Assembly: GCA_025356275.1 (NCBI GenBank)
Contig: JANXUK010000077.1
Span: 1-45,194, forward strand
Source: Sphingomonadales bacterium
GTDB taxonomy: Bacteria > Pseudomonadota > Alphaproteobacteria > Sphingomonadales > Sphingomonadaceae
Direction of reading: 5' to 3'
Length of the DNA: 45,194 bases
The notes below the pieces were generated by a model. The model worked only from the letters and a program-made list of their open reading frames with translations. It had not been told where the DNA came from and did not search any database. Position numbers and translations under genes: made by a program. This document shows, piece after piece, positions 12,070 to 33,225 of the stretch. Position 1 is the stretch's first letter. The number at the start of each line of letters is the position of its first letter.

Positions 12070-12203
12070 GGCGATGCTTCCTTCTTGCAAGTGGCCCCTC
12101 ATTGCCGGCAGGAGCTGGGGGCGCCTAGCGCTAATTTGAATTGCGCCGGTTTGGCGAATGGGATCGGTCGGGCGATATGGATGGTGCGGGAGGAAGGTTG
12201 AGC
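12070..12203. promoter_or_regulatory. Divergent promoter region between fno and cofE
   Basis: The 134-bp gap between the two F420 transcription units must contain both promoters. No convincing -35/-10 pair was found by eye. An 8-bp perfect palindrome TAGCGCTA (12126-12133) sits inside a looser GGCGC/GCGCC inverted repeat and is a possible operator. Shine-Dalgarno sequences are visible at both ends (AAGAAGGAAG for fno, GGGAGGAAGG for cofE). Confidence 0.45.
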
Positions 12204-12959: not shown

Positions 12960-12993
12960 GGCGGAGCCGGGGGATCACATGAGGCGGAGCCGG
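12956..12993 (+). repeat. Short direct repeat at the cofE/cofD junction
   Basis: The 15-mer ATGAGGCGGAGCCGG occurs at 12956-12970 and again at 12979-12993, offset 23 bp. The first copy overlaps the cofE stop as ATGA but is out of frame with cofD; the second carries the cofD start. It looks like a small tandem duplication that moved cofD away from an overlapping start. Confidence 0.75.
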
Positions 12994-13950: not shown

Positions 13951-16301
13951 TGATTCTCGCACCCGATAGCGCGCTGATCGCCGACCTGCTGGCACTGCCG
14001 TTGGACGTGCTGATGGCGCGGGCGCGCGACCGGCGGGAGGGGCGCGGTCCGGCGCGGCTGACCTATTCGCGCAAGGTGTTTATCCCGTTGACCCGGCTGT
14101 GCGCCGATGTCTGCCATTATTGCACCTTTGCCGCCGCGCCCTCACAAGTGCCGGCGCCGTTCCTGACGCTGGACGAGGTGCTGGTTATTGCCCGGGCCGG
14201 AGCGGCGGCGGGGTGCAAGGAGGCGCTCTTCACGCTGGGCGATGCGCCCGAGCGGCGGTATGCGGCGGCTCGCGAGTGGCTGGCGGCCGCAGGGTTTGCG
14301 CGGACGCTGGATTATGTCCGCCACTGCGCCGAGGCGGTGCTGCGCGAGACGGGCCTGTTGCCGCATATCAATGCCGGGCTGATGGATGCGGCGGATTATG
14401 CCGCGTTCAAGCCGGTGGCGGCGTCCTGCGGCCTGATGTTGGAGAGTGTGGCGGACTTGGGCGCGAAGGGCAGCGCGCATTATGGCTCGCCCGACAAGGT
14501 GCCGGCTTTGCGATTGGCTTCGCTGGCGGCGGCGGGCGCGGCTATGATGCCCGTGACCAGCGGCATCTTGTGCGGGATTGGCGAGAGAGCTGAGGAGCGG
14601 TTGGCGTCGCTGGTCGCTCTGCGCGACTTGCATGCCGCGCACGGGGCTTTGCAAGAAGTCATCATCCAGAATTTCTGCCCCAAGCCGGGCACGAAGATGG
14701 CCGGGGCGCCCGCATTGTCCGAGGCGGAATTCCTGCGCGTGGTGGCGGCGGCGCGGATTGTCCTGCCCAATGATGTCAGCGTGCAGGTGCCGCCGAACCT
14801 CAATGACGCGCGTCTAGCCGCGCTGATCGACGCCGGGATCGACGATTGGGGTGGGATTTCGCCGGTTACGATCGATCACGTCAACCCCGAAGCGCCTTGG
14901 CCCGAGGTTGAGCGGCTGGCGGCGATTTGTGCTGCAAAGGGCCTGCCATTGGTCGAGCGGCTGACCGCCTATCCGCGCTTTGTCCGCGATGCGTTTGGCG
15001 TGGGCGCGGCGAAGGGCTGGATCGATAAAACGCTGGCCCCGGCGGTGCTGCGGCTGGCCGACAGCGAGGGTCTGGCGCGTGACTCGGCGTGGAGTCCGGG
15101 GGTGGTCGAAGCCGCTCCGGGGAGCCCCTCGGCGCCTCTGGGCGCCCAGCATGCGGGGCCGGTGGCGGTGAGCCTGCACCGTATCCTCGATCGCGCGGCG
15201 GGCGGGTTTGCGCTGAGCGAGGCGGAGATCGTCACGCTGTTTTCGGCACGCGGCGCGGCGGCAGCGGCGGTGGTTGCGGCGGCGGATGCTTTGCGGCGCG
15301 AGGTCAAGGGCGACACCGTGACCTTCGTGATCAACCGCAACATCAATTACACCAATATCTGCACGCATTCCTGCAGCTTCTGCGCCTTTTCAAAGTCGTC
15401 CGCGAAATCCGGCATGCGCGATCCCGGCTATGTGCTGGATTTCGGCGAAGTGGCCGAACGCGCGGCGGATGCGGTGGCGCGGGGGGCCTCCGAAGTGTGC
15501 CTGCAAGGCGGTATCCACCCCAGCTACACCGGCGACACCTATGCCGGGATAGTTTCGGCGGTGAAGGCGCGGTGCCCCGATCTGCATGTCCATGCTTTCT
15601 CACCGCTGGAGGTCAGTCAGGGCGCGCGGACTTTGGGTGTCACCGTGGGCGACTATCTGGCGCGGCTGCGCGATCTCGGGCTGGGCTCGCTGCCAGGGAC
15701 GGCGGCGGAGATTTTGAGCGACGATGTGCGGGCGCGGATTTGCCCCGACAAACTGCCCACGGCAGAGTGGCTGGCCGTGGTGAGCGCGGCGCATCGCGCG
15801 GGCCTGCCGACCACCGCCACGATCATGTTCGGGCATTGTGAGGGGCCGGAGCATTGGGCCAGGCATCTGCTGGCGATCCGCAATCTTCAGGGCGAGACCG
15901 GGGGCTTTACCGAATTCGTGCCGCTGCCGCTCGTGCATATGGAAGCGCCGATGTACCGGCGCGGGCAATCGCGCCGGGGGCCCAGCTGGCGCGAGGCGGT
16001 GATGATGCATGCGGTGGCGCGGATCGTGCTGCACGGGCGGATTTCGTCGATCCAGGCGAGCTGGGTCAAGCTGGGGATGCCGGGTGCGGCGGCGGTGTTG
16101 AACGCGGGGGTCAATGATCTGGGCGGCGTGCTGATGAATGAGAGCATCAGCCGGGCGGCCGGCGCGGCGCATGGGCAGGAGGTTGGCGTGGCCGAGCTTA
16201 TCGCTGCTGCCAGCAGTGCCGGGCGGACCTTGCGCCGGCGCAGCACGCTGTATCGCGATATGGGGCCGGCGGAGGGGTGGCTGGCGCTGGAGCCCGCTTA
16301 A
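13950..16301 (+). CDS. fbiC: FO synthase, CofG-CofH fusion
   Basis: Two radical-SAM domains in one 783-residue chain make the deazaflavin FO from tyrosine and a flavin-pathway pyrimidine. The first (CofG-like, about 40-365) has CADVCHYC with cluster cysteines near 51, 55 and 58. An Ala/Pro-rich linker (about 375-410) leads to the CofH-like half with CTHSCSFC (cysteines near 471, 475, 478), NRNINYTNI, CLQGGIHP and SIQASWVKLG. The order matches actinobacterial FbiC rather than the split archaeal proteins. The start overlaps the cofD stop. Its stop interlocks with that of the converging DUF1501 gene, leaving no room for a separate terminator. Confidence 0.96.
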   Translation: MILAPDSALIADLLALPLDVLMARARDRREGRGPARLTYSRKVFIPLTRLCADVCHYCTFAAAPSQVPAPFLTLDEVLVIARAGAAAGCKEALFTLGDAPERRYAAAREWLAAAGFARTLDYVRHCAEAVLRETGLLPHINAGLMDAADYAAFKPVAASCGLMLESVADLGAKGSAHYGSPDKVPALRLASLAAAGAAMMPVTSGILCGIGERAEERLASLVALRDLHAAHGALQEVIIQNFCPKPGTKMAGAPALSEAEFLRVVAAARIVLPNDVSVQVPPNLNDARLAALIDAGIDDWGGISPVTIDHVNPEAPWPEVERLAAICAAKGLPLVERLTAYPRFVRDAFGVGAAKGWIDKTLAPAVLRLADSEGLARDSAWSPGVVEAAPGSPSAPLGAQHAGPVAVSLHRILDRAAGGFALSEAEIVTLFSARGAAAAAVVAAADALRREVKGDTVTFVINRNINYTNICTHSCSFCAFSKSSAKSGMRDPGYVLDFGEVAERAADAVARGASEVCLQGGIHPSYTGDTYAGIVSAVKARCPDLHVHAFSPLEVSQGARTLGVTVGDYLARLRDLGLGSLPGTAAEILSDDVRARICPDKLPTAEWLAVVSAAHRAGLPTTATIMFGHCEGPEHWARHLLAIRNLQGETGGFTEFVPLPLVHMEAPMYRRGQSRRGPSWREAVMMHAVARIVLHGRISSIQASWVKLGMPGAAAVLNAGVNDLGGVLMNESISRAAGAAHGQEVGVAELIAAASSAGRTLRRRSTLYRDMGPAEGWLALEPA

Positions 16302-17533
16302 ACCAGACCCAGATCCACCGGGGCCGCACCGGGGAACACATGCGCGATTTGCGCCGGCGACAGGCCATATTGCCGCGCCACGATCCCGCCGATCAGCGCG
16401 CGGTAATCGGTCAGCACCGGCAGGTCGCGGCCCTGGTTGAGCGTCTGGGGCGAAAGCGCGACTTGCGGCCCCGCGATGCGCCCGCCGCGCACCCCGCCGC
16501 CGAGCACCCAATAGGCGCTGCCATGGCCGTGATCGGTGCCCCGGTCGCCATTCTCGCGGAAAGTGCGGCCGAATTCTGAGATGACGACGACGGTGGTGTC
16601 CCGCCACGCATCCGGGCCGATCTCGGCGGCGAAACCGGCTAGCGCGCGGCCCAATTCGCCAATGTGGTTTGCCAGATAGCCCTGCGCGCCGCCCTGATTG
16701 ACGTGTGTGTCCCAACCGCCGACATCGACGAAAGCGAGGTTGTAATCGCTGCGCATCAGATGGCCGATGCGCTGGGCGGCGAGTTCAAAGCCCTTGGCGC
16801 TGACCGCGCCGCGCCCGGCCGCCTCCATCTCCTGATTGATCGAGGCGAACACCTGCTCGCGCACCGCGAAGCCCTCGGACACCGCATGGCCAAGGTCGGC
16901 GCCGCCCAAGTTCTGGCCCTTGTACATCGCGGCGATAAGCTCCGACTGACGCTGATCGAGCGGGGGTTTGCCAGCGGCATTGAGCGCGATATTGGGAATT
17001 ACAGGCCCGCCCCGGCAGCTGAGGGGGACCTGCTGGGTAAAGGCGATCGGCATACACTTCGGAGAGCTGCGCCCCGCCTCCAGCACGCCGGCCAGGCGGC
17101 CCATAAAGCCCGACTGATAATTGCGGGTGCCGGCGACCGGCTGGCCCAGTTCGATACTGTCCTGCGTTTCGAAATGGCTGCGGCTCATATCGTCGGTGCC
17201 GGCGAAGGGCACAAAGGCGATCTGGCGCGCGGCCCACAAGGGCGCGATGCTGTCCTTGAGTGCGGGGTGCAGGCTCCAGTCGGCATCGAGCGGCAGCGCG
17301 GCGTCCGGGTTGGCGGGGTCGGGGTGGGCCAGCGCGATATTGGGCCGCGCCTCGTGGTAGAACGCATTGCCGGTGGGGGCGATGATGTTGGCGGCATCAT
17401 AGGCGCCGCGCAGGAACACCACCAACAGGCGGCTATCTTTCGCCGCCGGTGCGGCAAAGGCGCGACCCACCACCACCGACGGTGCCAGCAGAGCAGAGGC
17501 GGCGAGCAGATTGCGACGGTTGATGATCAGCAT
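16298..17533 (-). CDS. DUF1501 family exported protein
   Basis: A 411-residue protein of the DUF1501 group, related in fold to alkaline phosphatase/sulfatase-like proteins. The N-terminus MLIINRRNLLAASALLAPS has twin Arg plus a hydrophobic stretch, so Tat export is likely. Family landmarks are LLVVFLRGAYDAANIIAP, the LALxxxWSLHPAL-like LDADWSLHPALKD, FVDVGGWDTHVNQGG and VVISEFGRTFRENGDRGTDH, which holds probable metal ligands. It sits downstream of a DUF1800 gene, the usual partner. Function in the family is poorly defined. Confidence 0.88.
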   Translation of the reverse strand: MLIINRRNLLAASALLAPSVVVGRAFAAPAAKDSRLLVVFLRGAYDAANIIAPTGNAFYHEARPNIALAHPDPANPDAALPLDADWSLHPALKDSIAPLWAARQIAFVPFAGTDDMSRSHFETQDSIELGQPVAGTRNYQSGFMGRLAGVLEAGRSSPKCMPIAFTQQVPLSCRGGPVIPNIALNAAGKPPLDQRQSELIAAMYKGQNLGGADLGHAVSEGFAVREQVFASINQEMEAAGRGAVSAKGFELAAQRIGHLMRSDYNLAFVDVGGWDTHVNQGGAQGYLANHIGELGRALAGFAAEIGPDAWRDTTVVVISEFGRTFRENGDRGTDHGHGSAYWVLGGGVRGGRIAGPQVALSPQTLNQGRDLPVLTDYRALIGGIVARQYGLSPAQIAHVFPGAAPVDLGLV

Positions 17534-17571
17534 GGCGGGGACCTTTGGTTTGATTGATCGCCTTGCGGCGA

Positions 17572-17665
17572 TGAAGCCTGTGCCATCCCCCGCCCCCTCC
17601 CGACATCCCAATCAGGATGTATTCTGTGGGAGGTCGGGAAGGGGCGGGGGATGGCACAGGCTTCA
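17572..17665. repeat. Long palindromic repeat, family B copy 2
   Basis: Arms of 33 bp at 17572-17604 and 17633-17665 match at 32 of 33 positions, starting TGAAGCCTGTGCCATCCC. The 28-nt loop, read on the other strand, shares TCCCACAGAATA with copy 1 at 225-312, so the element is inserted in the opposite orientation. It lies between the DUF1800 stop and the DUF1501 start and could form a large hairpin in their shared transcript. Confidence 0.82.
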
Positions 17666-17679
17666 CCCAACAAAGACTC

Positions 17680-19173
17680 TCAACGCTTCATAAAATCGGG
17701 CGAGGCTAGCAGCAACATGTTCCATTCCTGCGGTGTTGTCGCGGCGGCGAGGGTTGCGCGGGTTTGCGGCGCCAGCGTCGGCTCCAACCCGTTATAATAG
17801 AGCGCGTTCTGCATTTGCGGAAAAGCGGGCTGGTCGGATACTGCGCCGTCGCTGCGGAACAATCCGGCCGACCCGTTGCCGATGGCGCGCGCGATTTCGA
17901 AGCGGGTTTCCATCTGGCCCGGCCCGCTCCACGCCGCGGCGCCCAGCGGATAGCCGTCGGGCGTCTCATGCATATACAGGCCCTCGCCCATCTGGTTCAG
18001 CCAGTTGATCATCGGCCGCGCGTTCAGGATCACGCGTCCGTCATAGGCATAGCGCACCGCCGAGACGACGTAATGCACCGGGTCCTTGAAGCCGGTGGCC
18101 AGGCTGGCCTGATATTCGGGCGCGGCGAACATCGCGCGCAGCACCGCCGAAATGTCGCCATGCGTGCGCAGGAATGTGTCTGACATCGGCTGGGTCAGCG
18201 CAGGCGCCGGGTTGTCGCCGACGAAATATTCGGCGATTTTGGTGGACACATGATGCGCGGTGGCAGGCGATGCGGCGATCAGGTCCAGCGCCTGCTCCAC
18301 CTCGCCAAAGCCCGAGCCGTGGATGGTATGGCCCAGAAACTGCTTGTCACCGAAATCATGCCGGCGCGGGTCGAACTGAAATAGGCCGTCGTGGATTGCC
18401 AATTGCTGATATTGCGGGCGCATCTGGGCGCCATCGGGCCGGATGCTGACCCCGACCCCGGTGAGGATGCGCGCCAGTTCCTGCACATCCTTCTGGGTAT
18501 AGCCGGAGCCTACGCCCATTGAGTGCAGCTCCATGATTTCGCGGGCGTAATTCTCGTTGATCTTGCCCGCCGCGTTCTGATCATTGTCCAGATAGCGCAG
18601 CATTGCGGGATGCCGCAGGCTGGCCTCCAGCAAGCCCCTGTACGAACCCAGGGCATGCGCGCGCAGGACGTCCTGATAATCGCCGACCATCGCCCGGATG
18701 TCGCGTTTTTGCGCATGGACGCTGAACAGGTTGGACCAGAACCAGCCCATTTGTTCGGTCAGCTGGGCCGGGGAATACACATCGCGGAGCAGCGCGCGGG
18801 CCTGTGCCTCGCGCAGCAGGTCGTTCATGTCCTGCTGCCATGCCTTCTTGGCGGCTTCGCGCGCGGCGGGGTCGGTGATGTCCTTGGTGGCGCGCTGCTG
18901 GGCGTCCATTTCCTGCACCAGCTGGGCCATTGGCTCGCGGCTGATCCGCATCGCGGCGATCTGGGCCGCGACTTCGGGGGGAAGCGAGGAATCGGCGGGT
19001 GGACGCGCGAAACTGGGTGCGGGGGTGCTGACCGCGCCTTGCGTGACGCCCCAGGTGACGCGGTTGGCGGCGGCGATGCTGGCCGCCGGGATGGTCTGCG
19101 GTGCGGCGTGTGCCCCAACCGTGCCCAATGCGCCCGCCGCCAGCAGCGCGCCGCCTATCCACACTCTCGCCAT
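17680..19173 (-). CDS. DUF1800 family exported protein
   Basis: A 497-residue protein with a cleavable signal peptide (ARVWIGGALLAAGALGTVGAHA). DUF1800 landmarks include the QMGWFWSNLFSVH helix, YRGLLEASLRHPAMLRYLDN, the signature NENYAREIMELHSMGVGSGY, YTQKDVQELARILTGVGV and HHVSTKIAEYFVGD. DUF1800 proteins usually pair with a following DUF1501 gene, as here, although a family B palindrome separates the two. ATG 19173 is used; a TTG two codons upstream is less likely. The biochemical role is unknown. Confidence 0.9.
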   Translation of the reverse strand: MARVWIGGALLAAGALGTVGAHAAPQTIPAASIAAANRVTWGVTQGAVSTPAPSFARPPADSSLPPEVAAQIAAMRISREPMAQLVQEMDAQQRATKDITDPAAREAAKKAWQQDMNDLLREAQARALLRDVYSPAQLTEQMGWFWSNLFSVHAQKRDIRAMVGDYQDVLRAHALGSYRGLLEASLRHPAMLRYLDNDQNAAGKINENYAREIMELHSMGVGSGYTQKDVQELARILTGVGVSIRPDGAQMRPQYQQLAIHDGLFQFDPRRHDFGDKQFLGHTIHGSGFGEVEQALDLIAASPATAHHVSTKIAEYFVGDNPAPALTQPMSDTFLRTHGDISAVLRAMFAAPEYQASLATGFKDPVHYVVSAVRYAYDGRVILNARPMINWLNQMGEGLYMHETPDGYPLGAAAWSGPGQMETRFEIARAIGNGSAGLFRSDGAVSDQPAFPQMQNALYYNGLEPTLAPQTRATLAAATTPQEWNMLLLASPDFMKR

Positions 19174-19289
19174 TGCCAAGCCTCGCCGAAAATTCCGATG
19201 CGGCGGTGGTAGTGCGCCCTAGTTGAGCGGCAGCTTAACGGCGCTGGATAAATGGCAATGCTAAGTGGTAATAAAGTGTCGCAGACGCG

Positions 19290-19363
19290 CTAGTGGATTG
19301 ATTTTGACATTTGCATCCCCTGGCGGTTGGGATGGGTCTGCAAATGTCAGAATCGGACCACTA
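19290..19363. repeat. Palindromic repeat, family A copy 3
   Basis: CTAGTGG at 19290-19296 pairs with CCACTA at 19358-19363. The inner arm GATTTTGACATTTGCA pairs with TGCAAATGTCAGAATC at 15 of 16 positions. The outermost bases provide the TAG stop codon of the VOC gene, so the element sits exactly at the gene end. Copies 1 and 2 are at 29-107 and 122-197. Confidence 0.78.
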
Positions 19364-19828
19364 CATGCCGTGAAGTTGTTCCCACATGCCGTCGGACATG
19401 CAGGTGTATTCGAGGTAATGTCCGAAAGCCTTGCGGCCATCGAGATAGAGAAAGCGCAAGTGATCGGGGCCGAGGTCGCGTTCCATTACCAGCGGCATGT
19501 CCTGGACATCCACCCGCGCGCGGAACCCGTCCCAGTCATTGATGCGCATGCAGATGTGGTGAAAGCGTAAGGGCCCGCCATTGCTTTGCGCGTTGGCATA
19601 GAGCCCGGTCTCGTCCTTGATCGTCTCGATCAATTCATATTGCAGATCGCCGATCCAGATAAAGCAGATGCGGCTGACGATGTGTTTCGGCCCGGCGGGG
19701 GTGGTGACCATCTGGTCGACATCGATGATATGCGGCTCTTTGGTCAGACCCCGCCCGCGAAACTGGTCGATGCCCACCGCGATATCGTCGCAGGCATAGG
19801 CGTTCTGGTAGTGGTGGCCTTCGAGCAT
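19361..19828 (-). CDS. VOC (glyoxalase/dioxygenase fold) family protein
   Basis: A 155-residue protein of the Glyoxalase_4-like group: GHHYQNAYACDDIAVGIDQF at the start, the DLQYELIETIKDETGLY strand with a likely Glu ligand, GGPLRFHHICMRINDWDGF with the second-half His, and GHYLEYTCM near the end with another Glu. Metal ligands therefore appear present. Family members include epimerases, lyases and extradiol-type enzymes; the reaction is open. It starts 15 bp after the sulfotransferase stop, so the two are probably co-transcribed. Its stop codon lies in a family A repeat. Confidence 0.8.
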   Translation of the reverse strand: MLEGHHYQNAYACDDIAVGIDQFRGRGLTKEPHIIDVDQMVTTPAGPKHIVSRICFIWIGDLQYELIETIKDETGLYANAQSNGGPLRFHHICMRINDWDGFRARVDVQDMPLVMERDLGPDHLRFLYLDGRKAFGHYLEYTCMSDGMWEQLHGM

Positions 19829-19843
19829 GTTTGCGGTCCCTGA

Positions 19844-21007
19844 TTAGCCTTCGCGCGCGACATCGTAACGGGCGAGGTAGTGTTCGAACATGGGCTCCAA
19901 CTGGGCCAGGCTGACGCCATATTTCGCCAGCTTGTATTCGTGGCGGCCGAATTTATCCTGCGGATTGTCGGCCAGCCAGCCGGCGATCCCGGCCTCGGCC
20001 TCGGGCGTGAAGGCGTCGCCCAGCTTCGTGTACAGCCGCTTCATCACCCCGATCGGATCGGCCAGCATGTCGGCGTAATGCACATCGATGATCCGGTCTT
20101 CGCCGAATTTGTCGCGAAAATCCATGATACGCTCGGCATGTTCGCGCGCCTGCCATGGGTAATTCTCGCCGAGCCATGCGGTGTCGATCCGGCCCATATG
20201 CGCCTGATGGCTGAGCGAGATGAGGCTGCACAGCGAGGCTGCGGCGGCATAGGGGTCGCGGTGGGTCCAGATCACCCGCGCATCTGGGTACTCGGCGAAC
20301 AAAGCCTCCAGATACAGTGCATGGCTGGGCATCTTGAGGTTCCATGTACCCGGCGCGTCGGCGCCCAGCACGCTGAGAAATTTGCGGTGATAGGCATAGG
20401 CGGAAGCCATGTCGCAGCCAAAGATGAACTCCTTGTATTCGGGCAGGATACCCTTGGATTCCAGCATCAGCGTCTTGAAATCATGCGCCATGAAGAACAC
20501 GCATTCGTTGGGATAGGTGGCCGAGCCGCGATAATATTTGCCCATGTCGGGATTGGCGGCCAGCATCGCCCGCTCCTGCGCCAGCCGCGCCAACGCACGC
20601 GGATCGGTCTTTAACGTCGCAGAGGTGGCGGGGGGAACCGGATCGTCCACCTCCCACGTCAGGGTCGAGCGCCGCGCCGGGTCGGCGCCGAGCAGATTGG
20701 ATAGCAGCGTGGTCCCGGTGCGCGGCACGCCCATCACGAAGACCGGGCGCTCGATCTTGCGTGCGGCCAGTTCCGGGCGCTGGCGCAGGTAATCGGTGAT
20801 CTTCAGGCGGTTTGTGAGGTAGTGGACGATGTCGTCACGGGTGCGGGATATGCCGCGCTCATTATACAGGTCTGTGGCGATGCCCCGGTTGAAATCGCGC
20901 ACCAGCACGCCCAAACCTTCGGCGTAGCTATCGCCGCCCATGTCGCTGAGGCCAGTGCCGACCTGCGCGGTTTCGACCAGTCTCTCAGCGATCAGTGCTT
21001 CGGCCAT
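19844..21007 (-). CDS. PAPS-dependent sulfotransferase (Sulfotransfer_3 type)
   Basis: A 387-residue cytoplasmic sulfotransferase transferring sulfuryl from PAPS to a hydroxyl or amine acceptor. The 5'-phosphosulfate loop GVPRTGTTLLSNLL is at about 93-106 and the 3'-phosphate motif ARVIWTHRDPYAAAASLCS at about 243-261 contains the expected Arg250 and Ser259. An N-terminal segment of about 85 residues precedes the core, as in the bacterial Sulfotransfer_3 branch. No membrane segment is seen, so a small-molecule acceptor is likelier than a glycan. The gene is divergent from an SDR-ADH-MBL-cysDNC-cysQ run that could supply PAPS and remove PAP. The acceptor is unknown. Confidence 0.87.
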   Translation of the reverse strand: MAEALIAERLVETAQVGTGLSDMGGDSYAEGLGVLVRDFNRGIATDLYNERGISRTRDDIVHYLTNRLKITDYLRQRPELAARKIERPVFVMGVPRTGTTLLSNLLGADPARRSTLTWEVDDPVPPATSATLKTDPRALARLAQERAMLAANPDMGKYYRGSATYPNECVFFMAHDFKTLMLESKGILPEYKEFIFGCDMASAYAYHRKFLSVLGADAPGTWNLKMPSHALYLEALFAEYPDARVIWTHRDPYAAAASLCSLISLSHQAHMGRIDTAWLGENYPWQAREHAERIMDFRDKFGEDRIIDVHYADMLADPIGVMKRLYTKLGDAFTPEAEAGIAGWLADNPQDKFGRHEYKLAKYGVSLAQLEPMFEHYLARYDVAREG

Positions 21008-21177
21008 GGCGCGTGTTCTCCCAAACTGCCCGGCGCTTGTGGGGCCTGCGTGCCGCGATGTCGCGCAGGTTTGGGCGCGGGCATCGTAACCATCGCCGAA
21101 GCGATTGGCGCAGCGCGGGCGCGCGGGGTATGGCCACAGGATTGGGAATGCCGGGTTAGATGTTTGAGGAGACGACT

Positions 21178-21969
21178 ATGGCCGCGCGGCTGTTCGATTG
21201 TAGCGGAAAGGTCTCGCTGGTGACCGGCGGCAATGGCGGGATCGGGCTTGGCTTCGCCATGGGCACCGCCAGGATGGGCGGCGATGTCGCGATCTGGGCG
21301 CGCAATGCCGAGAAGAACGCGGCGGCCAAGGCCGAGCTGCTGGCAGCGGGCGCGGGCCGGGTCGAGACCTATCAGGTCGATGTTCGCACCGAGGATGCGA
21401 TTGTCGCGGGCTATGAGCGGCTGATGGCCGACTTTGGCCGGATCGATTGCGTGTTCGCCAATTCGGGGGCCAGCCCGCGTTACAATTCGGTGTTCGAAAT
21501 GCCGACCGCGCATTGGCATGAGTTTCAGGCGGTGGCGCTGCACGGCGCGTTCTTTACCCTGCGCGAGGGCGCGCGGCATATGGTCGCCCGCGCCAAAGCG
21601 GGGGAGCCCGGCGGCAGCCTGGTCGCCTGCGGCAGCCTGTCGCTGTTTCAAGGCCTGCCGGGGAAGCTGGAATATGCCGCATCGAAGGCGGCGGTGGGCG
21701 CGGTGATCCGCTGTCTCGCGGCCGAGATGGGGCAGTATAATATCCGCGCCAACATGGTTGCGCCGGGGTTGATCATCACCCCGATGATGGGCGACAACCC
21801 GGCGGTGGCGCAGCATCTGAAGGCGGTCTACGGTCCGCAGACGCCGCTGCGCCGGGTGGGTGCGCCTGAGGATTTCGAGGGTATCGGCGCCTATCTGTGC
21901 TCGGATGCCTCATCCTTTATGACCGGCGAGACGATCATCCTCGACGGCGGATACATGATCCGCGCGTAA
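21178..21969 (+). CDS. SDR family oxidoreductase
   Basis: A 263-residue short-chain dehydrogenase: TGGNGGIGLGFA nucleotide loop, ANSG in place of NNAG, catalytic Ser in CGSLSLFQGLPG, Tyr-Lys in EYAASK, and FMTGETIILDGGYMI at the C-terminus. Arg after the second strand (IWARN) suggests NADP(H). ATG 21178 has GAGGAG about 7 bp upstream; ATG 21160 is an alternative. It is the first gene of the + run divergent from the sulfotransferase and is followed 24 bp later by an alcohol dehydrogenase. Confidence 0.88.
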   Translation: MAARLFDCSGKVSLVTGGNGGIGLGFAMGTARMGGDVAIWARNAEKNAAAKAELLAAGAGRVETYQVDVRTEDAIVAGYERLMADFGRIDCVFANSGASPRYNSVFEMPTAHWHEFQAVALHGAFFTLREGARHMVARAKAGEPGGSLVACGSLSLFQGLPGKLEYAASKAAVGAVIRCLAAEMGQYNIRANMVAPGLIITPMMGDNPAVAQHLKAVYGPQTPLRRVGAPEDFEGIGAYLCSDASSFMTGETIILDGGYMIRA

Positions 21970-21993
21970 CCAGAATTTCCCCGGAGATAGCCT

Positions 21994-23004
21994 ATGCGCC
22001 TGCTCAAGATTCACGGTGTCGGTGATGTCCGGCTTGACGATTACGCCCGGCCCGCCGCCGGGCCCAAAGATGTGGTGGTGGCGATGAAGGCGGTGGGGAT
22101 CTGCGGCAGCGACCTGTCCTATATCAAGATAGGCGGCATGCCGGCGGAGCCCGGCGGGACCACCGCGCTCGGCCATGAGGGCGCCGGCGAGGTGATCGAG
22201 GTCGGCGCCGAGGTCAGCGGCATTGCGGTGGGCCAGAAGGTCATCGTCAACCCGATGATGACCCCCAGCAACATCGGCAGCGGTGGGCCGGAGGGCGCGT
22301 TTACCGAGGAATTGCTGGTGCGTGAGGCGCGGCTGGGCTCCTCGATCCTGCCGATCCCGCCGGGCATTTCGTATGAGGTGGCAGCTTTGTGCGAGCCGCT
22401 GGCGGTCGCGATGCACGGCGTCAACCGCGCCGAGGTCAAGGCCGGCAACAAGGTGGTGGTGTTCGGCTGCGGCCCGATTGGGCTGGGCATGGTGCTGTGG
22501 CTGGTCGACCGGGGAATCACCGATGTCGTGGCGCTGGATCTGGCACCCGAACGGCGGGCGCGGGCGATGGCGCTGGGGGCGCTGGCAGCGCTCGATCCCG
22601 CCGCATGCGACGTCCGGGCCGAGCTGATGCGGCTGCATGGTGAGGCGAGGTCCTTCAACCGGCATGGCCCGGCCACCGACGCCTATATCGACGCGGCGGG
22701 GGCGCCCAATATCGTCTCCGACGTGGTGATGATGGCCAAGTTCCATGCGCGGCTGGTGATTACCGCCGCCTATATGAAGCCGATCGAATTTCCCGCCGGG
22801 CGGATGCTGACCAGCGAGATGACGATCACCGCCGCCGTCGGCTATCCCACCGAAATGCCCGAGGTGATTGCCGCGATGCCGCGGCTTAATGCCAAGCTGG
22901 AATCCCTGATCAGCCACAGGCTGGGGTTCGACGATATGATGGAGGGGCTGCGTATCGCTGCCACCCCGGGTTCAGCCAAGGTGATGATTGCGATGGGCGT
23001 ATGA
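21994..23004 (+). CDS. Zinc-dependent medium-chain alcohol dehydrogenase
   Basis: A 336-residue MDR-family dehydrogenase. Catalytic zinc ligands are visible: Cys37 in GICGSD, His61-Glu62 in GHEGAGEV and Glu134 in CEPLAVAMHG. The cofactor fold is VVVFGCGPIGLGMV with Asp in VALDLAPERR, favouring NAD(H). The structural-zinc lobe with four cysteines, expected around residues 85-110, is missing and replaced by a Met/Gly/Ser-rich stretch. The gene overlaps the MBL gene by four bases (ATGA). The substrate is an unknown alcohol, plausibly linked to the adjacent sulfation or desulfation genes. Confidence 0.87.
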   Translation: MRLLKIHGVGDVRLDDYARPAAGPKDVVVAMKAVGICGSDLSYIKIGGMPAEPGGTTALGHEGAGEVIEVGAEVSGIAVGQKVIVNPMMTPSNIGSGGPEGAFTEELLVREARLGSSILPIPPGISYEVAALCEPLAVAMHGVNRAEVKAGNKVVVFGCGPIGLGMVLWLVDRGITDVVALDLAPERRARAMALGALAALDPAACDVRAELMRLHGEARSFNRHGPATDAYIDAAGAPNIVSDVVMMAKFHARLVITAAYMKPIEFPAGRMLTSEMTITAAVGYPTEMPEVIAAMPRLNAKLESLISHRLGFDDMMEGLRIAATPGSAKVMIAMGV

Positions 23005-24245
23005 GCGAGGCGAAACCCCAGCTGGCGGCGCTGGTGCGCGGCGGCGATGCGCAGACCGCGGCATTGGTGATCACGCCGTTCATCTTTCAGGCGAACGACA
23101 TCTCCAACGCCTATCTGATCAACACCGGCGACGGCGATGTGATGGTCAACACCGGCTTTTTCGACGATGCCAACCAACAGCGCAATCTGGCGCTGCTGAC
23201 GCCGCATCGCACCGGGCCGATGCGGCGGATCATCCTGACGCAGAGCCACGCCGATCATTACGGCGGGGTGCCGGTGTTCCGCGAGGCAGGGACCATCGTG
23301 ATCGGCGGGCCGTGCTATACCGAAAACCTGAACGATATGATGGGGTTGCAGGCATTTTTTGGCCCGCGCAGCAAGAAGCTGTGGGGCACGACGATGCAAC
23401 GCGGCGCCGCGCCCAAGCCGGCGCCCGAGGTCGTGCCCGATATCGAGATCGACCGCATGTACAGCTTCGAGCAGGGCGGGCGCCGGTTTGAGCTGATATA
23501 TACGCCCGAGGGTGAGACGCTGGACGGATTGACCGTGTGGCTGCCCGACGATGGCGTCGCGTTTACCGGCAATCTGTGCGGGCCGGTGTGGTGTTCGATG
23601 CCGTTCCTCAATACTGTGCGCGGGGACAAGCCCCGGCTGGTTCGCAATTACCTCAAATCACTGATGAAGCTGCGCGCGCTGGGGGCGGAGATCATCGTTA
23701 CCGGGCACGGCGAGCCGATCCGGGGCGCGGCGAAGATCGCCAGCGACATCGATCTGATGCATGGCGCGGTATCCTGGGTGCGCGATTATACGCTGGCGGG
23801 GATGAAGGCGGGCAAGACGGTGCATCAGCTTATGCGCGAGGTGGCACTGCCGGCCGAGCTCAAGATCGGCGAGTTCCATGGCAAGGTCAGCTGGGCGGTG
23901 CGCAGCATCTGGGCTGAATATTCGGGCTGGCTGCATTACGAGGACGGCACCACCGCGCTCTATGGTGTGCCGCGCAGTTCGGTCGACGGCGATCTGGCCG
24001 AGCTGGCGGGCGGGGCGGAAGCTATCGCGGCGCGGGCGCGGGCGCGGCTGGATGCGGGGGATGCGCTGGAGGCGGTGCATCTGTCGGATATCGCGCTGGG
24101 CGCCGATCCGGGGTTGAAACCGGCGTGGATGGTGCGGCGCGATGCCTGTGCGGCGTTGCTGGTGGCGTCGGGCGGGACCAACTTGTCGGAGACGATGTGG
24201 TTGAAGTCGGAGATCGCGGCGGCCGAACTGACGCTTAATAGATAG
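23001..24245 (+). CDS. Alkyl-sulfatase-like metallo-beta-lactamase fold hydrolase
   Basis: A 414-residue MBL-fold protein with the layout of type III alkyl sulfatases (SdsA1/BDS1) but no C-terminal SCP2-like domain. The metal motif reads QSHADHYGG (81-89) instead of HSHADH. The segment usually written AEN...HNLYTLRG is here TGNLCGPVWCSMPFLNTVRG, so two further ligand positions appear changed. VTGHGEPIRG keeps a His. The helical part that follows (HGAVSWVRDYTLAGMKAGKT, LPAELKIGEFHGKVSWAVRS, YSGWLHYEDG) matches the alkyl-sulfatase dimerisation domain. Sulfate-ester hydrolysis is possible but altered chemistry is equally so. Confidence 0.78.
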   Translation: MSEAKPQLAALVRGGDAQTAALVITPFIFQANDISNAYLINTGDGDVMVNTGFFDDANQQRNLALLTPHRTGPMRRIILTQSHADHYGGVPVFREAGTIVIGGPCYTENLNDMMGLQAFFGPRSKKLWGTTMQRGAAPKPAPEVVPDIEIDRMYSFEQGGRRFELIYTPEGETLDGLTVWLPDDGVAFTGNLCGPVWCSMPFLNTVRGDKPRLVRNYLKSLMKLRALGAEIIVTGHGEPIRGAAKIASDIDLMHGAVSWVRDYTLAGMKAGKTVHQLMREVALPAELKIGEFHGKVSWAVRSIWAEYSGWLHYEDGTTALYGVPRSSVDGDLAELAGGAEAIAARARARLDAGDALEAVHLSDIALGADPGLKPAWMVRRDACAALLVASGGTNLSETMWLKSEIAAAELTLNR

Positions 24246-24258
24246 TACGCACTATCTA
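24239..24258. promoter_or_regulatory. 20-bp inverted repeat, candidate operator upstream of cysD
   Basis: TAGATAGTACGCACTATCTA is an inverted repeat with two perfect 8-bp arms around ACGC. It overlaps the stop codon of the MBL gene and lies 74 bp before the cysD start. Arm length and spacing resemble operators of TetR-family repressors. The TetR gene at 34709-35419 is one candidate binder, but nothing here proves this. Confidence 0.6.
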
Positions 24259-24331
24259 AAAGAGATACTTGATTGCGCGGGTGCGCGCCGGCTGTCAGGG
24301 CCGGCCCAACATAACAAGAAAGCGGCGGATA

Positions 24332-25237
24332 ATGGCACGAACCCTCACCCATCTCGAACGGCTGGAGGCCGAAAGCATCCACATCATCCGCGAGGTGGTG
24401 GCCGAGGCTGACAAGCCAGTAATGCTCTATTCGGTGGGCAAGGATTCGGCGGTGATGCTGCATCTGGCGCGCAAGGCGTTCTATCCCTCGCCGCCGCCGT
24501 TTCCGCTGCTGCATGTCGATACGACGTGGAAATTCAAGGCGATGTATGAGCTGCGCGCCAGGATGGCCGAACTTTCGGGCATGGAACTGCTGGTCTACAA
24601 AAATCCCGAAGCGGTCGAAAAGGGCATCAACCCGTTCGATCACGGCGCGCTGCATACCGATATGTGGAAGACCGAGGGCCTCAAGCAGGCGCTCGACAAA
24701 TATGGCTTCGACGTGGCGTTCGGCGGCGCGCGGCGCGATGAGGAAAAATCGCGCGCCAAGGAGCGCATTTTCTCATTCCGCACCGCCTCGCATGGCTGGG
24801 ACCCGAAGAACCAGCGGCCCGAGTTGTGGAACATCTATAACGCCAAGAAGAGCAAGGGTGAGAGCATCCGCTGCTTTCCGATCAGCAACTGGACCGAGCT
24901 GGACGTGTGGCAATATATTCACCTCAATGACATCCCGATCGTGCCGCTGTATTTTGCCGGCATGCGCCCCACGGTGGAGCGCGACGGGATGCTGTTGATG
25001 GTCGACGATGACCGTTTTCCGCTGCGCCCCGGTGAGGTGCCGGTGATGCGTTCGGTGCGGTTCCGCACCCTGGGCTGCTATCCGCTGACCGGCGCGGTGG
25101 AGAGCACCGCGAGCACGCTGCCCGAGGTGATCCAGGAGACGCTGCTCACCACCACCAGCGAGCGTCAGGGCCGCGCCATCGACAAGGATGCCGGCGGCGC
25201 GGGCATGGAGAAAAAGAAGCAGGAGGGGTATTTCTGA
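24332..25237 (+). CDS. cysD: Sulfate adenylyltransferase subunit 2
   Basis: Catalytic small subunit of ATP sulfurylase, forming APS from ATP and sulfate with the CysN GTPase. The 301-residue length is typical. Landmarks: [20 protein letters not shown], the PP-loop [64 protein letters not shown] and the C-terminal [12 protein letters not shown] 24332 is preceded by AAGAAAG. A 20-bp inverted repeat upstream may regulate it. The stop overlaps the cysNC start by one base. Confidence 0.97.
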
Positions 25238-27204
25238 TGTCCGACGTGAAAACCCCAGAAGCCATTTACGTTACCGAGGCGCTGATCGCCGAGGATATCG
25301 ACGCCTATCTGGATCAGCATCAGCACAAGACCATGCTGCGCTTCATCACCTGTGGGTCGGTGGATGATGGCAAGTCAACGCTGATCGGCCGGCTGCTGTA
25401 TGACAGCAAGATGATCTTCGAGGATCAGCTCGACGCGCTGGCGCTCGATTCCAAGAAAGTCGGCACACAGGGTCAGGAGATCGATTTCGCGCTGCTGGTC
25501 GATGGGCTGGCCGCAGAGCGCGAGCAGGGCATCACCATCGATGTCGCATACCGCTTCTTCAACACTGAAAAGCGCAAATTCATCGTCGCCGATTGTCCGG
25601 GGCATGAGCAATATACCCGCAACATGGTGACCGGCGCCAGCACCGCCGATCTGGCCGTGATCCTGATTGATGCGCGCAAGGGCGTGCTGGTGCAGACCCG
25701 GCGGCATTCCTACCTGTGCCACCTGATCGGCATCACCAACATGGTGCTGGCCGTGAACAAGATGGACCTCGTCGATTACAGCGAGGCGCGGTTCAACGAG
25801 ATCCTGGCGGACTATACCGCGTTCGCGCACTCGATCGGGATTACCGAGTTTACCGCGATGCCGATCTCGGGCTTCAAGGGCGACAATATCATCGGCGCAT
25901 CGGACAATACGCCGTGGTACAAAGGCCCCAACCTGGTCGAGCATCTGGAGGCGGTCGAGGTCAATTCGGCGCGCGATGCCGGCAAGGCGTTCCGTATGCC
26001 GGTGCAATGGGTCAACCGGCCCAATCTCGATTTCCGGGGCTTCGCAGGCCTGATCGCCTCCGGCAGCGTCAAGCCGGGCGACGCCATCCGCGTGCTGCCC
26101 AGCGGCAAGACCAGCAGCGTGACGCGAGTGGTAACGATGCCAAGTGCCGGTTTCGCAGGCGAAACCGCTGGCGATGGCGACCTCGACGAGGCGATGGCCG
26201 GGCAGTCGGTGACGGTATGCTTTGCCGATGAGATCGATTGCTCGCGTGGCAGCGTGATCACCGCCGCCGACAATCCGCCCGAGGTCGCCGATCAGTTCGA
26301 AGCGACTCTGGTATGGATGGATGATGCGCCGCTCAACGTCGGCCGCGCCTATTGGCTGAAGCTGGGCACGCAGCTGGTTTCGGCCACGGTGCAGGCGCCC
26401 AAATATGCGGTCAATGTCAATGATGCCGGGGGTTCCGGGTCACACGTTGCGGTCAAGACGCTGGAGCTGAACGCCATCGGCGTGGCCGAACTCGCCACCG
26501 ACAAGCCGATCGTGTTCGAGGCTTATGCTGAGAACCGGACGCTGGGCGGGTTCATCCTGATCGACAAGATGACCAACCGCACCGTGGCGGCCGGCATGCT
26601 GCATTTCAGCCTGCGCCGCGCGCAGAACGTCCATTGGCAGGCGACCGATATTACGCGGGGCGATCACGCAGACCTCAAGAACCAGACGGCACGGGTGCTG
26701 TGGTTTACCGGCCTGTCGGGGTCGGGCAAATCGACCATCGCCAATGAGGTCGAGAAGGCGCTCAACCTGATGAACCGCCATACGTTCCTGCTCGATGGCG
26801 ACAATGTGCGGCACGGGCTGAACAAGGATCTCGGCTTTACCGAGGCGGACCGGATCGAGAATATCCGCCGCGTCGGTGAGGTCGCCAAGCTGATGGCGGA
26901 CGCGGGCCTGATCGTGCTGACCGCGTTCATCAGCCCGTTCAAGGCCGACCGAGATCTGGTGCGCGGCATGCTGCCCGAGGGCGAGTTCATCGAGGTATTT
27001 GTCGATACCCCGCTGGCGGTGGCCGAGGCGCGCGATGTGAAGGGCCTGTACAAAAAGGCACGCGCCGGGACGCTCAAGAATTTCACCGGGATCGACAGTC
27101 CGTATGAGCCGCCGGCGTCGCCGGAAATCCGCGTCAACACCGTGGAGATGTCGGCGCAGGAGGCGGCGGCGCATATCATCCGCCAGCTGATGCCGCTGAA
27201 ATGA
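25237..27204 (+). CDS. cysNC: Bifunctional sulfate adenylyltransferase GTPase subunit / APS kinase
   Basis: A CysN-CysC fusion of 655 residues that couples APS formation and its phosphorylation to PAPS. The CysN part has [17 protein letters not shown] (about 40-56), the switch region [25 protein letters not shown] and VNKMDL, followed by EF-Tu-like beta domains. The CysC part (about 480-655) has Walker [18 protein letters not shown] (about 489-505), [17 protein letters not shown] and [20 protein letters not shown]. The fusion means the locus is equipped for PAPS rather than only APS. It overlaps cysD by one base and cysQ by four. Confidence 0.97.
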
Positions 27205-27989
27205 GCGCCGCGATGACCAACGACGCCGATCTTGCCGCGCATCTGGCGCAGGTTGCGGGCCGCTTGCTGATCGGCGTGCGCGACGCCGGGCTGTTTACGG
27301 CCAAGGCGCTGGGCAAGGCGGGGGATGCCACCGCCAACCAGTTCCTGTGCCACGCCATCGCCGAACAGCGACCCGACGATGGCCTGCTGTCTGAGGAAGC
27401 GAAGGATACCGAGGAGCGGCTGGGCAAAAGCCGCGTGTGGATCATCGATCCGGTCGATGGGACGCGCGAATACTCCGAAAAAAACGAACAAGGGCTCGCG
27501 CGGACCGACTGGGCGGTGCATGTCGCGATGGCGGTGGACGGCGTGGCGAGCATTGGCGCGGTGGCTTTGCCAGGGGCCGATGACGGGAAAGGGCTGGTTT
27601 TGCGGTCGGACAGGCCCGGCACCGTGCCCCCTGCGCCTGCAACTTTGCGCATGGTGGTCAGCCGCACCCGGCCCGCGCGTGAGGCGGTCGCGGTGGCCGA
27701 GAAACTGGGCGCGGTGCTGGTGCCGATGGGCTCGGCGGGCGCGAAGGCGATGGCGATCGTGCTGGGCGACGCCGACATCTATCTCCACTCGGGCGGGCAA
27801 TATGAGTGGGACAGCTGCGCGCCGGTGGCGGTGGCTCTGGCGCACGGCCTGCATGCCTCGCGCATCGATGGCAGCCCGCTGATCTATAACCAGCCGAACG
27901 TCTATATGCCCGACCTGCTGATCTGCCGGAAGGAACATGCACAGCGCGTTCTGGCCGAGGTTGCCGCGCTCTGTCCCGCAGGGGGATAG
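27201..27989 (+). CDS. cysQ: 3'(2'),5'-bisphosphate nucleotidase
   Basis: A 262-residue inositol-monophosphatase-superfamily enzyme that hydrolyses PAP, the product of sulfotransferases and PAPS reductase, to AMP. Metal motifs are [22 protein letters not shown] and [23 protein letters not shown] overlap with cysNC and a 2-bp gap to the following ligase place it in one operon. Removal of PAP fits the nearby PAPS-using sulfotransferase. Confidence 0.92.
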
Positions 27990-27991
27990 CG

Positions 27992-29698
27992 ATGGGCGAT
28001 GCTGCGGGCGCTGACACAGGCATGGCGCTGGCGCGGGGGATTGCGCTGGAGGATGAGGCCGGGATCGGCGCGCTGACGCTGGGTGGGTGGCTGCGTGCGG
28101 TGTGTGAGCGTTATGGCGAGGCCGAGGCGTTGGTGCTGCACACGCCGGCGGGGGTTGTGCGGTGGTCCTATGCGCGTTTGTGGGATGAAGCATTTGCGGT
28201 GGCGCGGGCGCTGGTGGCCTGCGGCGTGGGCAAGGGCACGCGGGTCGGCGTGCTGGCCACCAACCGCCCCGAGTTTCTGGCCGGCGTGTTCGGCACCGCG
28301 CTGGCAGGCGGGGTTGCCACCACGATCAGCACCTTCTTCACCGCGCCAGAACTGGGCACCGTGCTGGAGATGGCCGGATGTTCGGTGCTGCTGGCCGAGC
28401 GGCAGGTGCTGAAGAAGGATTTTGCCGCGATGCTGCTGACGCTCGATCCGGCGATCGCCGAGGCGGCACCGGGGCGGATCGCTTCGACGCGGTTTCCGTT
28501 CCTGACGCATATCGCCCTGATCGACAGCGAACAGGGTGAGGGCGGCATTGAGGGCTGGCGCGATTTTTGCGCGCGCGGGCACGGCGTGGACCCAGCGATG
28601 GTCGAGTCGCGCGCTGCCAGCGTGGCACCGTCCGATCCCGGCGCGCTGTTCTTCTCGTCGGGTTCGACCGGCAAGGCCAAGGGCATCCTGTCTGCGCATC
28701 GGGGCGTATGCCTGCAATTGTGGCGCTGGCCGCAGTGGTATGCGATCAAAACACCGCCGCGCACCTGGTCGGCCAATGGTTTTTTCTGGTCGGGAAATTT
28801 CGCGATGGCGCTGGGCGGCACGCTTTCGGCGGGCGGATCGCTGGTGCTGCAACGCTGGTTTGATGCCGAGGAGGCTCTGGACCTGATGGCGGCTGAGCGC
28901 GCCAGCATGGTGCTGGCCTGGCCGCACCAATGGGCGCAGCTGACTTCGGCGGCGGGGTACGCCGGGGCCGATCTGTCGGCGCTGCATTATATCGACGCCG
29001 GAACGCCGCTGGCGCAGCACGCATCTGTGAACACCGATTGGCGCGAGCCGGCGCGGGCCTATGGCAATACCGAGACGTTCACGCTGATCACGGTCTATCC
29101 GGCGGGCACCCCCGACGCGGTGGCGGTGGGGAGCCATGGGTTGCCTACCGCCGGCTCAACGGTGAAGGTGGTCGATCCGCTGAGCGGTGTGCTGCTTCGG
29201 GTGGGCGAGCGCGGCGAGATTGCGGTTAAAGGCCCGACGTTGATGCTTTGCTATCTCGGTATTCCGCTCGATCAGAGTCTGGACGACGAAGGCTTCCTGC
29301 GCACCGGCGACGGTGGGTTTATCGACGCCGAAGGGCGGTTGTTCTGGGAAGGGCGGCTCAACGACATTATCAAGACCGGGGGCGCTAATGTGTCACCGCT
29401 GGAGATCGATGCGGTGATCCGCGCCTGTCCGGCGGTGAAAATGTCGCAGACGGTGGGCGTGCCCGACGAACTGCTGGGCGAGATGGTGGTGACCTGTATC
29501 GTGCGGCACGCGGGCGCCAGCCTGGACGAGGCGGCGATCCGCGACTTTGCCAAGGCGCAATTGTCGAGCTATAAATTGCCGCGCCGGGTGCTGTTCGTGG
29601 CCGAGGACCAGTTGCAGACCACCGGCAGCGCGAAGATCAAGACCGCCGACTTGCGGGCCTTGGCGGCGGGAATGCTGGCGGGGTCGACGCGCGCGTAA
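27992..29698 (+). CDS. Acyl-CoA synthetase (AMP-forming) in the PAPS operon
   Basis: A 568-residue ANL-superfamily ligase activating an unknown carboxylic acid to its CoA thioester. Motifs: FFSSGSTGKAKGILSAHRG (P-loop), ARAYGNTETFT, FLRTGDGGFIDAEGRL, LNDIIKTGGANVSPLEID and the lysine region TTGSAKIKTADLR. It starts two bases after the cysQ stop, which is unusual company for a CoA ligase and ties it to sulfation genes. The substrate cannot be read from motifs. It converges on the cupin gene with only 3 bp between stops. Confidence 0.88.
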   Translation: MGDAAGADTGMALARGIALEDEAGIGALTLGGWLRAVCERYGEAEALVLHTPAGVVRWSYARLWDEAFAVARALVACGVGKGTRVGVLATNRPEFLAGVFGTALAGGVATTISTFFTAPELGTVLEMAGCSVLLAERQVLKKDFAAMLLTLDPAIAEAAPGRIASTRFPFLTHIALIDSEQGEGGIEGWRDFCARGHGVDPAMVESRAASVAPSDPGALFFSSGSTGKAKGILSAHRGVCLQLWRWPQWYAIKTPPRTWSANGFFWSGNFAMALGGTLSAGGSLVLQRWFDAEEALDLMAAERASMVLAWPHQWAQLTSAAGYAGADLSALHYIDAGTPLAQHASVNTDWREPARAYGNTETFTLITVYPAGTPDAVAVGSHGLPTAGSTVKVVDPLSGVLLRVGERGEIAVKGPTLMLCYLGIPLDQSLDDEGFLRTGDGGFIDAEGRLFWEGRLNDIIKTGGANVSPLEIDAVIRACPAVKMSQTVGVPDELLGEMVVTCIVRHAGASLDEAAIRDFAKAQLSSYKLPRRVLFVAEDQLQTTGSAKIKTADLRALAAGMLAGSTRA

Positions 29699-32442: not shown

Positions 32443-33183
32443 TTGGGTAAGATCATCGTCATAACCGGCGCGGGCGACGGGCTGGGCCGGGCGCTGGCGC
32501 GGCGCTTTGCCCGCGATGGCGAGACCGTGGTGCTGCTGGGGCGCACGGCGGCCAAGGTGCAGGCGGTGGCCGGGGAACTGGGCGCGCCGGCGATGGCACT
32601 GTGCTGCGATGTCGGCAACCCGGACAGCGTGCGTGAGGCCTTTGCCGAGATTGCCAAGGTCCATCCGCGCATCGACGTGCTGATCAACAATGCCGGTATT
32701 TTTGAGCCGTTCACGCTGGGCGAGGTCAGCGACGCGCAGATCATGGCCCAGCTGATGACCAATCTGGCGGGGCCGATGTTCGTCGGCCGCACCGCTTTGC
32801 CGATGCTCAGGGACGGCGGGCACATCATCAACGTCAGCAGCGAGACGGTGCATCTGCAAATGCCGATGCTGTGGCTGTATGGCGCGACCAAGACCGCGCT
32901 GGAATATGCCTCTCGGATGTGGATGGATGAGCTTGCCGCCGATGGCGTGCGCGTGACGGTGGTTCGCGCCGGGCCGATGATGGACGAGACCAAGACCGGC
33001 ACGAGCTGGCCGATAGAGGTTGCCATGCGGTTCCATCAGGCGAACGTCAAGGTCGGCATCGACATGCGTGAGCGTCCGATCAGCCATTACAATTCGGCCA
33101 CCGATGTGTTCCGCGCGGTGCTGGACATGCCCGCCGATCTGCATCTCGGCCTCGTGACCGTCGGCGCCCAACGGCCAGCTTGA
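32443..33183 (+). CDS. SDR family oxidoreductase with TTG start
   Basis: A 246-residue short-chain dehydrogenase: ITGAGDGLGRALARRFA, INNAGIF, Ser in NVSSETVHLQMPMLWLYGAT with Tyr-Lys at YGATK. Arg after strand two (LLGRTAAK) suggests NADP(H). No ATG precedes the Rossmann strand in frame; TTG 32443 has GAGG about 8 bp upstream, while ATG 32435 is out of frame, so TTG initiation is likely. It precedes the aldehyde dehydrogenase by 42 bp, suggesting successive oxidation of an alcohol. Confidence 0.87.
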   Translation: MGKIIVITGAGDGLGRALARRFARDGETVVLLGRTAAKVQAVAGELGAPAMALCCDVGNPDSVREAFAEIAKVHPRIDVLINNAGIFEPFTLGEVSDAQIMAQLMTNLAGPMFVGRTALPMLRDGGHIINVSSETVHLQMPMLWLYGATKTALEYASRMWMDELAADGVRVTVVRAGPMMDETKTGTSWPIEVAMRFHQANVKVGIDMRERPISHYNSATDVFRAVLDMPADLHLGLVTVGAQRPA

Positions 33184-33225
33184 TTACCCATTTTTGATCG
33201 CTCCATTTTTTTGGGAAACGCCGCC

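Follow-up and report, generated by a model that had tools for sequence, protein, structure and literature searches.

A stretch of 45,194 nucleotides from a Sphingomonadales bacterium of the Sphingomonadaceae (assembly GCA_025356275.1, contig JANXUK010000077.1), referred to here as the window, was analysed for a locus in which the genes of a sulfotransferase (ST) and of a metallo-beta-lactamase (MBL) protein of alkylsulfatase fold are found next to genes for the synthesis of 3'-phosphoadenosine 5'-phosphosulfate (PAPS). A divergent pair, encoding a vicinal oxygen chelate (VOC) protein and the ST, lies opposite a run of genes for a short-chain dehydrogenase (SDR), an alcohol dehydrogenase (ADH), the MBL protein, CysD, CysNC, a CysQ-like phosphatase and an acyl-CoA ligase (Table 1). 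All the genes named in an earlier reading of this DNA (the original prediction) were recovered with Pfam and NCBIfam, intact and close together, where that reading had placed them. The VOC and ST genes are separated by 15 bp, the divergent ST and SDR genes by 152 bp and the SDR and ADH genes by 24 bp; further along the plus strand the ADH and MBL genes overlap by 4 bp, 86 bp separate the MBL gene from cysD, cysD and cysNC overlap by 1 bp, cysNC and cysQ by 4 bp, and 2 bp lie between cysQ and the ligase gene. The adjacent CysD and CysNC both score above the curated NCBIfam cut-offs, and the label CysQ-like was adopted because the phosphatase meets the Inositol_P family but misses the cut-off of the equivalog TIGR01331.

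Table 1. Genes of the locus, with their positions in the window and the supporting profile matches.
Product	Position	Strand	Profile evidence
VOC protein (Glyoxalase_4-like)	19361..19828	-	Pfam Glyoxalase_4 E 1.4e-4, 22.6 bits, below 27-bit cut-off
ST, Stf9-like, presumably PAPS-dependent	19844..21007	-	PF13469 E 6.3e-42
SDR	21160..21969	+	PF13561 E 2.4e-50
Medium-chain (MDR) ADH	21994..23004	+	PF08240/PF00107
Alkylsulfatase-fold MBL protein, Gln81 and Asn191 at metal-ligand positions	23001..24245	+	PF00753 and PF14863 (Alkyl_sulf_dimr), over cut-off
CysD, sulfate adenylyltransferase small subunit	24332..25237	+	NCBIfam PRK12563 515.8 bits, cut-off 413
CysNC, GTPase subunit fused to adenosine 5'-phosphosulfate (APS) kinase	25237..27204	+	NCBIfam PRK05506 1018.9 bits, cut-off 715
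CysQ-like 3'-phosphoadenosine 5'-phosphate (PAP) phosphatase	27201..27989	+	PF00459 (Inositol_P) E 1.6e-30; TIGR01331 84.9 bits, below 228.8 cut-off
Acyl-CoA synthetase (AMP-ligase), peripheral to module	27992..29698	+	PF00501 E 3.9e-54

The ST was assigned by its PF13469 domain (144.7 bits, cut-off 27) and by a similarity to solved members of the family that spans its full length, residues 10-387 aligning with residues 33-412 of PDB entry 2z6v (E 6e-90), followed by 2zq5 (E 4.2e-42); these entries we take to be the mycobacterial Stf9 and Stf1, respectively. The translation contains the motif GVPRTGTT, which presumably serves the use of PAPS as sulfuryl donor. To our knowledge, bacterial Stf-type sulfotransferases are numerous and mostly without a known substrate.

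The MBL protein is the sole PF14863 match in the genome, and its profile relatives are SdsA1 (E 1.7e-41), YjcS and Pisa1. The predicted structure (AlphaFold2, pLDDT 94.1) has alkylsulfatases as its nearest structures, with Pisa1 as the best match (Z 34.2, root-mean-square deviation 2.5 over 397 residues), and about 395 residues of it, comprising the MBL fold and the dimerisation domain, are shared with SdsA1, SdsAP and Pisa1 (Z 31 to 34). Known type III alkylsulfatases carry a C-terminal domain after the dimerisation domain. Unlike SdsA1, SdsAP and Pisa1, the window protein lacks this domain: it ends at residue 414, the model (residues 1-413) aligns to Pisa1 96-533 (Pisa1 chain of 639 or 631 residues), and the end of the alignment, at Pisa1 531-533, places the terminus at the start of the C-terminal domain seen in those enzymes. 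The metal site also differs. The zinc ligands of SdsAP are given in the excerpt of its report as D196, H197, E322 and H367 for one ion and H192, H194, E303 and E322 for the other, with Glu322 bridging (PMC5426288). This full binuclear set is absent from the window protein, since SdsAP His192 is replaced by Gln81 and the bridging Glu322 by Asn191; the other five ligand positions, His83, Asp85, His86, His236 and, at the Zn2 position, Glu172 (equivalent to SdsAP Glu303), are retained as in the type III alkylsulfatases. The same excerpt assigns SdsAP a signal sequence of 41 residues (PMC5426288); none was noticed in the window protein on inspection by eye. The protein is thus a true relative of the alkylsulfatases Pisa1 and SdsA1 but no ordinary sulfatase, and a role in which a sulfated compound is made and then cleaved, as the original prediction had put it for a sulfatase-like protein, is not supported in that form with two metal ligands substituted and the C-terminal domain missing.

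The conservation of the locus was evaluated in two surveys. Among 199 genomes of Sphingomonadaceae, a homologue of the MBL protein with at least 35% identity was found in 10, the window's genome counted, and an ST homologue lay within about 5 kb in nine of these, the remaining one being G049; in G111, which belongs to the window's genus, homologue searches found neither MBL nor ST. The VOC, ST, SDR, ADH, MBL, cysD, cysNC and cysQ genes are identically arranged in G172 (of the window's genus), G168 and G021 (another genus), and the arrangement is therefore more than chance. In the wider survey, named genomes were scanned with an MBL alignment and the top 80 of 394 relatives by MBL similarity were retained; together with the 10 family loci, 90 MBL loci were scored by profile, of which 88 are distinct because two contigs, to judge from their equal lengths and matches, occur twice (L077 and L104; L076 and L139). 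One locus with no called open reading frame (L156, of the His/Asp type described below) was dropped, its lack of an ST match referring to a stretch that extends no more than about 28 bp beyond it on the right, and one MBL gene split over two frames (L080) was counted once. The taxa in the scan include Novosphingobium, Sphingobium, Solimonas, Steroidobacter, Halieaceae, Myxococcota, Frankia, Pseudofrankia and Mycobacterium colombiense.

Glutamine 81 and Asn191 always occur together, in 82 of the 90 homologues (Gln81 type), the remaining eight having His81 and Asp191. Within 5 kb of the 82 Gln81-type genes an ST was found in 67 cases, an ADH in 60 and a VOC protein in 47, and in loci with more than 5 kb on both sides the ST was present in 51 of 58. 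The figure expected by chance was estimated at about 3% (some seven PF13469 genes, eight matches, in 3.18 Mb). The loci with an ST span Alpha- and Gammaproteobacteria, Myxococcota and Actinomycetota. An SDR match lay within 5 kb in 64 of the 71 Gln81-type loci of the best-80 scan (with at least 40% identity in 56), and in none of the eight His81-type loci with the same query, where an ST was found within 5 kb once (L165, 3.8 kb). MBL and ST distances are strongly correlated (r 0.81 over 67 pairs; best of 2000 permutations, 0.30). In M. colombiense, two genes related to the window ST (41 and 40% identity) each have an MBL gene of the same kind upstream, one of them has an ADH gene downstream, and a separate ST-MBL pair lies at L171; unlike the window, the stretches around these pairs contain no cysDNC. 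Some MBL genes adjoin a remoter ST paralogue (about 25-40% identity; few cases). The ST, MBL, SDR and ADH genes are thus a conserved unit, and the synteny proposed as a check in the original prediction, that of the ST with the MBL gene, was found repeatedly, often with the SDR and ADH genes. The acyl-CoA ligase, which the original prediction had counted into the system, was rejected as a core gene, as was a cupin, since the block conserved in L072, L074 and L075 contains neither; the acyl-CoA synthetase family is present in 15 clustered loci.

The genes for PAPS supply present a more divided picture. Searches of the genome with PF01507 returned two genes, the window cysD and one cysH, and a search with PF01583 returned the window cysNC only, so that no second cysDNC was found in this draft of 143 contigs and a dedicated second copy, whose presence the original prediction had suggested looking for, was rejected for this genome. 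PAPS reductase and sulfite reductase are indeed missing from the locus, as that reading had noted, but cysH, a DUF934 gene and sulfite reductase lie together on another contig (C134); the window cysDNC, as the only copy found, must therefore also serve assimilation. Of the two observations that the original prediction had named as refuting it, a single cysDNC copy is thus borne out for this genome, and an ST that never co-occurs with the MBL and ADH genes elsewhere is not. The draft assembly could have merged two nearly identical copies into one, since the two CysNC copies of G168 are 99.5% identical. A second cysDNC elsewhere in the genome was found in G168, G021 and G213 and in two Frankiales genomes. 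Within G168 and G021, the two copies are 99 and 100% identical for CysD, 99.5 and 88.7% for CysNC and 66 and 63% for CysQ, respectively, a pattern suggestive of either gene conversion or a recent duplication of cysD(NC). A division of CysQ into clean locus and housekeeping classes was dropped because the identities overlap (77% for L082 and 73% for L089, both without an MBL gene).

In a CysNC tree (quick IQ-TREE, no bootstrap) the MBL-linked proteins of Sphingomonadaceae and of Frankia/Pseudofrankia each group with their own lineage (branch supports 98 and 94), indicating that cysNC was recruited to the module at least twice, and at least eight changes between linked and free copies are forced by well-supported branches. 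An ST was present within 5 kb of all eight cysNC copies found in Frankia sp. AgB1.9 (five, two of them cut by contig ends) and Pseudofrankia (three), and an MBL gene in three of these loci (L151, L208 and L153, the last being the same as L210). In these actinomycetes (L203-L208, L210) an ST gene precedes every cysD-cysNC found and five of the eight loci have no MBL gene, giving the appearance of a set of sulfation operons. Twelve sphingomonad cysNC stretches that lack an MBL gene served as a control, and an ST was found in L082 only; of the remaining 11, L209 shares a contig with the MBL locus L098, at a distance of about 11 kb, in a genome (G220) that has a further cysNC on another contig. 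In the genome of L077 (G025) no full cysNC was obtained. As a separate observation, L082 (genome G118, 3.0-16.4 kb) places cysDNC-cysQ between two sulfotransferases and an ADH, with no MBL match. The conserved unit, together with the joining of PAPS synthesis to it in two lineages, in some genomes through an additional cysDNC, makes the use of PAPS for sulfation likely, in agreement with the original prediction.

The best single reading of these data, which stands at about an even chance, is that the ST forms a sulfate ester on which the MBL protein then acts; with a conserved partner that has a sulfate-ester-breaking fold and a changed metal site, the product of the ST is predicted to be what the MBL protein uses as substrate. 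The ST, SDR, ADH, MBL and VOC proteins would work together as one module in the catabolism or detoxification of a hydroxylated substrate that is probably cyclic. In this module PAPS would come from CysD and CysNC and PAP would be cleared by the CysQ-like phosphatase, the same cysDNC also feeding the assimilatory CysH and sulfite reductase. One hydroxyl of the substrate would be sulfated by the ST, and the altered-site MBL protein would act on the ester with sulfate leaving, either by hydrolysis or by elimination, the latter amounting to a dehydration paid for with PAPS; the alcohol or ketone would be oxidised or reduced by the SDR and ADH before or after the sulfate step. In the available portion of the Pisa1 report, a zinc-activated water breaks the C-O bond with inversion (PMC3920027), and the hydrolytic variant would follow the same course. 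The two lost ligands may favour elimination or another use of the metal, and Arg207 and Arg212, which align with RG..R of SdsA1, probably hold the sulfate.

Several observations weigh against this reading of an ester made and then acted upon. The ST was found within 5 kb in 37 of 41 alphaproteobacterial Gln81-type loci and in only 6 of 13 gammaproteobacterial ones, and it is missing from seven loci with long flanks (L081, L106, L107, L126, L134, L145 and L152); in L126 and L134, the two of these that were examined, another contig carries an ST (55 and 59% identity, respectively). Six Gln81-type homologues additionally have Asn85 and Gln86, with an ST nearby in all six; this change possibly arose twice, the group needing two changes in the MBL tree (FastTree, in which L156 is labelled Gln/Asn by default). 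Single homologues have Ile86 and Tyr236 among the ligand columns, and Gln81 and Asn191 might mean that the protein no longer hydrolyses anything. A cysNC lies within 8 kb of only 23 of the 82 Gln81-type genes, and among 18 proteobacterial genomes with a linked cysNC it is the single copy in 17, the exception being L129 (G213), so that in these proteobacteria linkage alone is no proof of dedication.

An alternative considered unlikely, yet the strongest of those weighed, is that the ST draws on PAPS supplied by the operon next to it to yield a stable sulfated end product, a conjugate or a signal, and that the MBL protein is a non-hydrolytic partner involved in binding, scaffolding or a different reaction. 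The amides at two ligand positions, with two more ligands replaced in the six homologues just mentioned, are consistent with it, as is the presence of PqsE among the lesser structural matches of the model (Z about 21); PqsE has the MBL fold and a function that goes beyond hydrolysis. Against this, His83, Glu172, Arg207 and Arg212 are invariant in all 90 homologues and His236 is kept in 89, which speaks for a retained active site, and the neighbouring SDR and ADH, as well as aldehyde dehydrogenases nearby, look catabolic.

It is rather improbable that cysD-cysNC-cysQ is an ordinary assimilation operon that by chance lies downstream of an unrelated accessory locus, which the original prediction had itself offered as its alternative. 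One half of that proposal holds, in that this cysDNC is the sole copy found and cysH and sulfite reductase elsewhere depend on it; the sole copies in 17 of the 18 proteobacterial genomes and the 59 Gln81-type loci that have no cysNC up to 8 kb away, as far as the stretch covered extends, point the same way. The half concerning chance is made less likely by the recruitment of cysDNC in two lineages, by the second copies in G168, G021 and G213, by the ST beside every Frankiales cysNC copy and by its near absence from the sphingomonad control, in which one stretch (L209) is itself on the contig of an MBL locus. That the MBL protein is a plain scavenging alkylsulfatase that hydrolyses external sulfate esters to supply sulfur, with the ST as a mere neighbour, is highly improbable, since the fold and sequence family shared with SdsA1 and Pisa1 are outweighed by the substituted metal ligands, the missing C-terminal domain, the tight MBL-ST pairing and the covarying distances.

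Sulfate-activation genes are found beside a sulfotransferase, often as extra copies, in the nodPQ-nodH genes of rhizobia and the raxPQ-raxST genes of Xanthomonas. The window resembles these systems distantly in that such genes adjoin a sulfotransferase, and differs from them by the altered alkylsulfatase-fold protein, the SDR and the ADH and by the lack of a second copy among those found in the genome; from SdsA1, SdsAP and Pisa1 the window MBL protein is further set apart by lying beside an ST. CurM, the ST-thioesterase of curacin synthesis, sulfates a carrier-bound beta-hydroxy acyl chain, which is then decarboxylated, with no MBL protein involved, and sulfation to create a leaving group is the chemistry proposed for the window module. 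If sulfate is the leaving group, a catabolic role for PAPS beyond conjugation and sulfur assimilation would follow. A broader proposal, tentative and on present evidence doubtful, is that the amide-substituted alkylsulfatase-fold family and the Stf9-like sulfotransferases evolved as a two-step system for the removal or inversion of unactivated hydroxyls, general in the catabolism of hydroxylated cyclic compounds, in which sulfation by PAPS would be followed by loss of sulfate through elimination or inverting cleavage. Given the changed metal site, a sulfatase annotation of MBL genes of this kind calls for caution. No description of this module was found among the matches listed from the open-licence literature, as titles and the starts of abstracts.

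Steroid catabolism was rejected as the pathway, being suggestive only. A KstD-like FAD family occurs in 10 clustered loci, with two representatives below the NCBIfam cut-off, and two KstD-like genes in the window's genome are also below the cut-off, the same search giving matches in 14 of 14 controls as well and thus carrying little weight.

Among the neighbouring genes, the DUF1501 and DUF1800 pair at 16298-19179 adjoins the VOC and ST genes and did not appear in the block shared by L072, L074 and L075. The region 10834-16301 carries coenzyme F420 genes (CofC, an F420-dependent NADP oxidoreductase, an F420 ligase, CofD and a fused CofGH/FbiC, the last scoring over its cut-off), the families of which were seen again in 10 to 19 clustered loci. 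On the other side, an SDR and an aldehyde dehydrogenase are encoded at 32443-34707; their families are present in 12 and 14 clustered loci, with matches also in Steroidobacter and Halieaceae, and they perhaps perform a later step of the same pathway.

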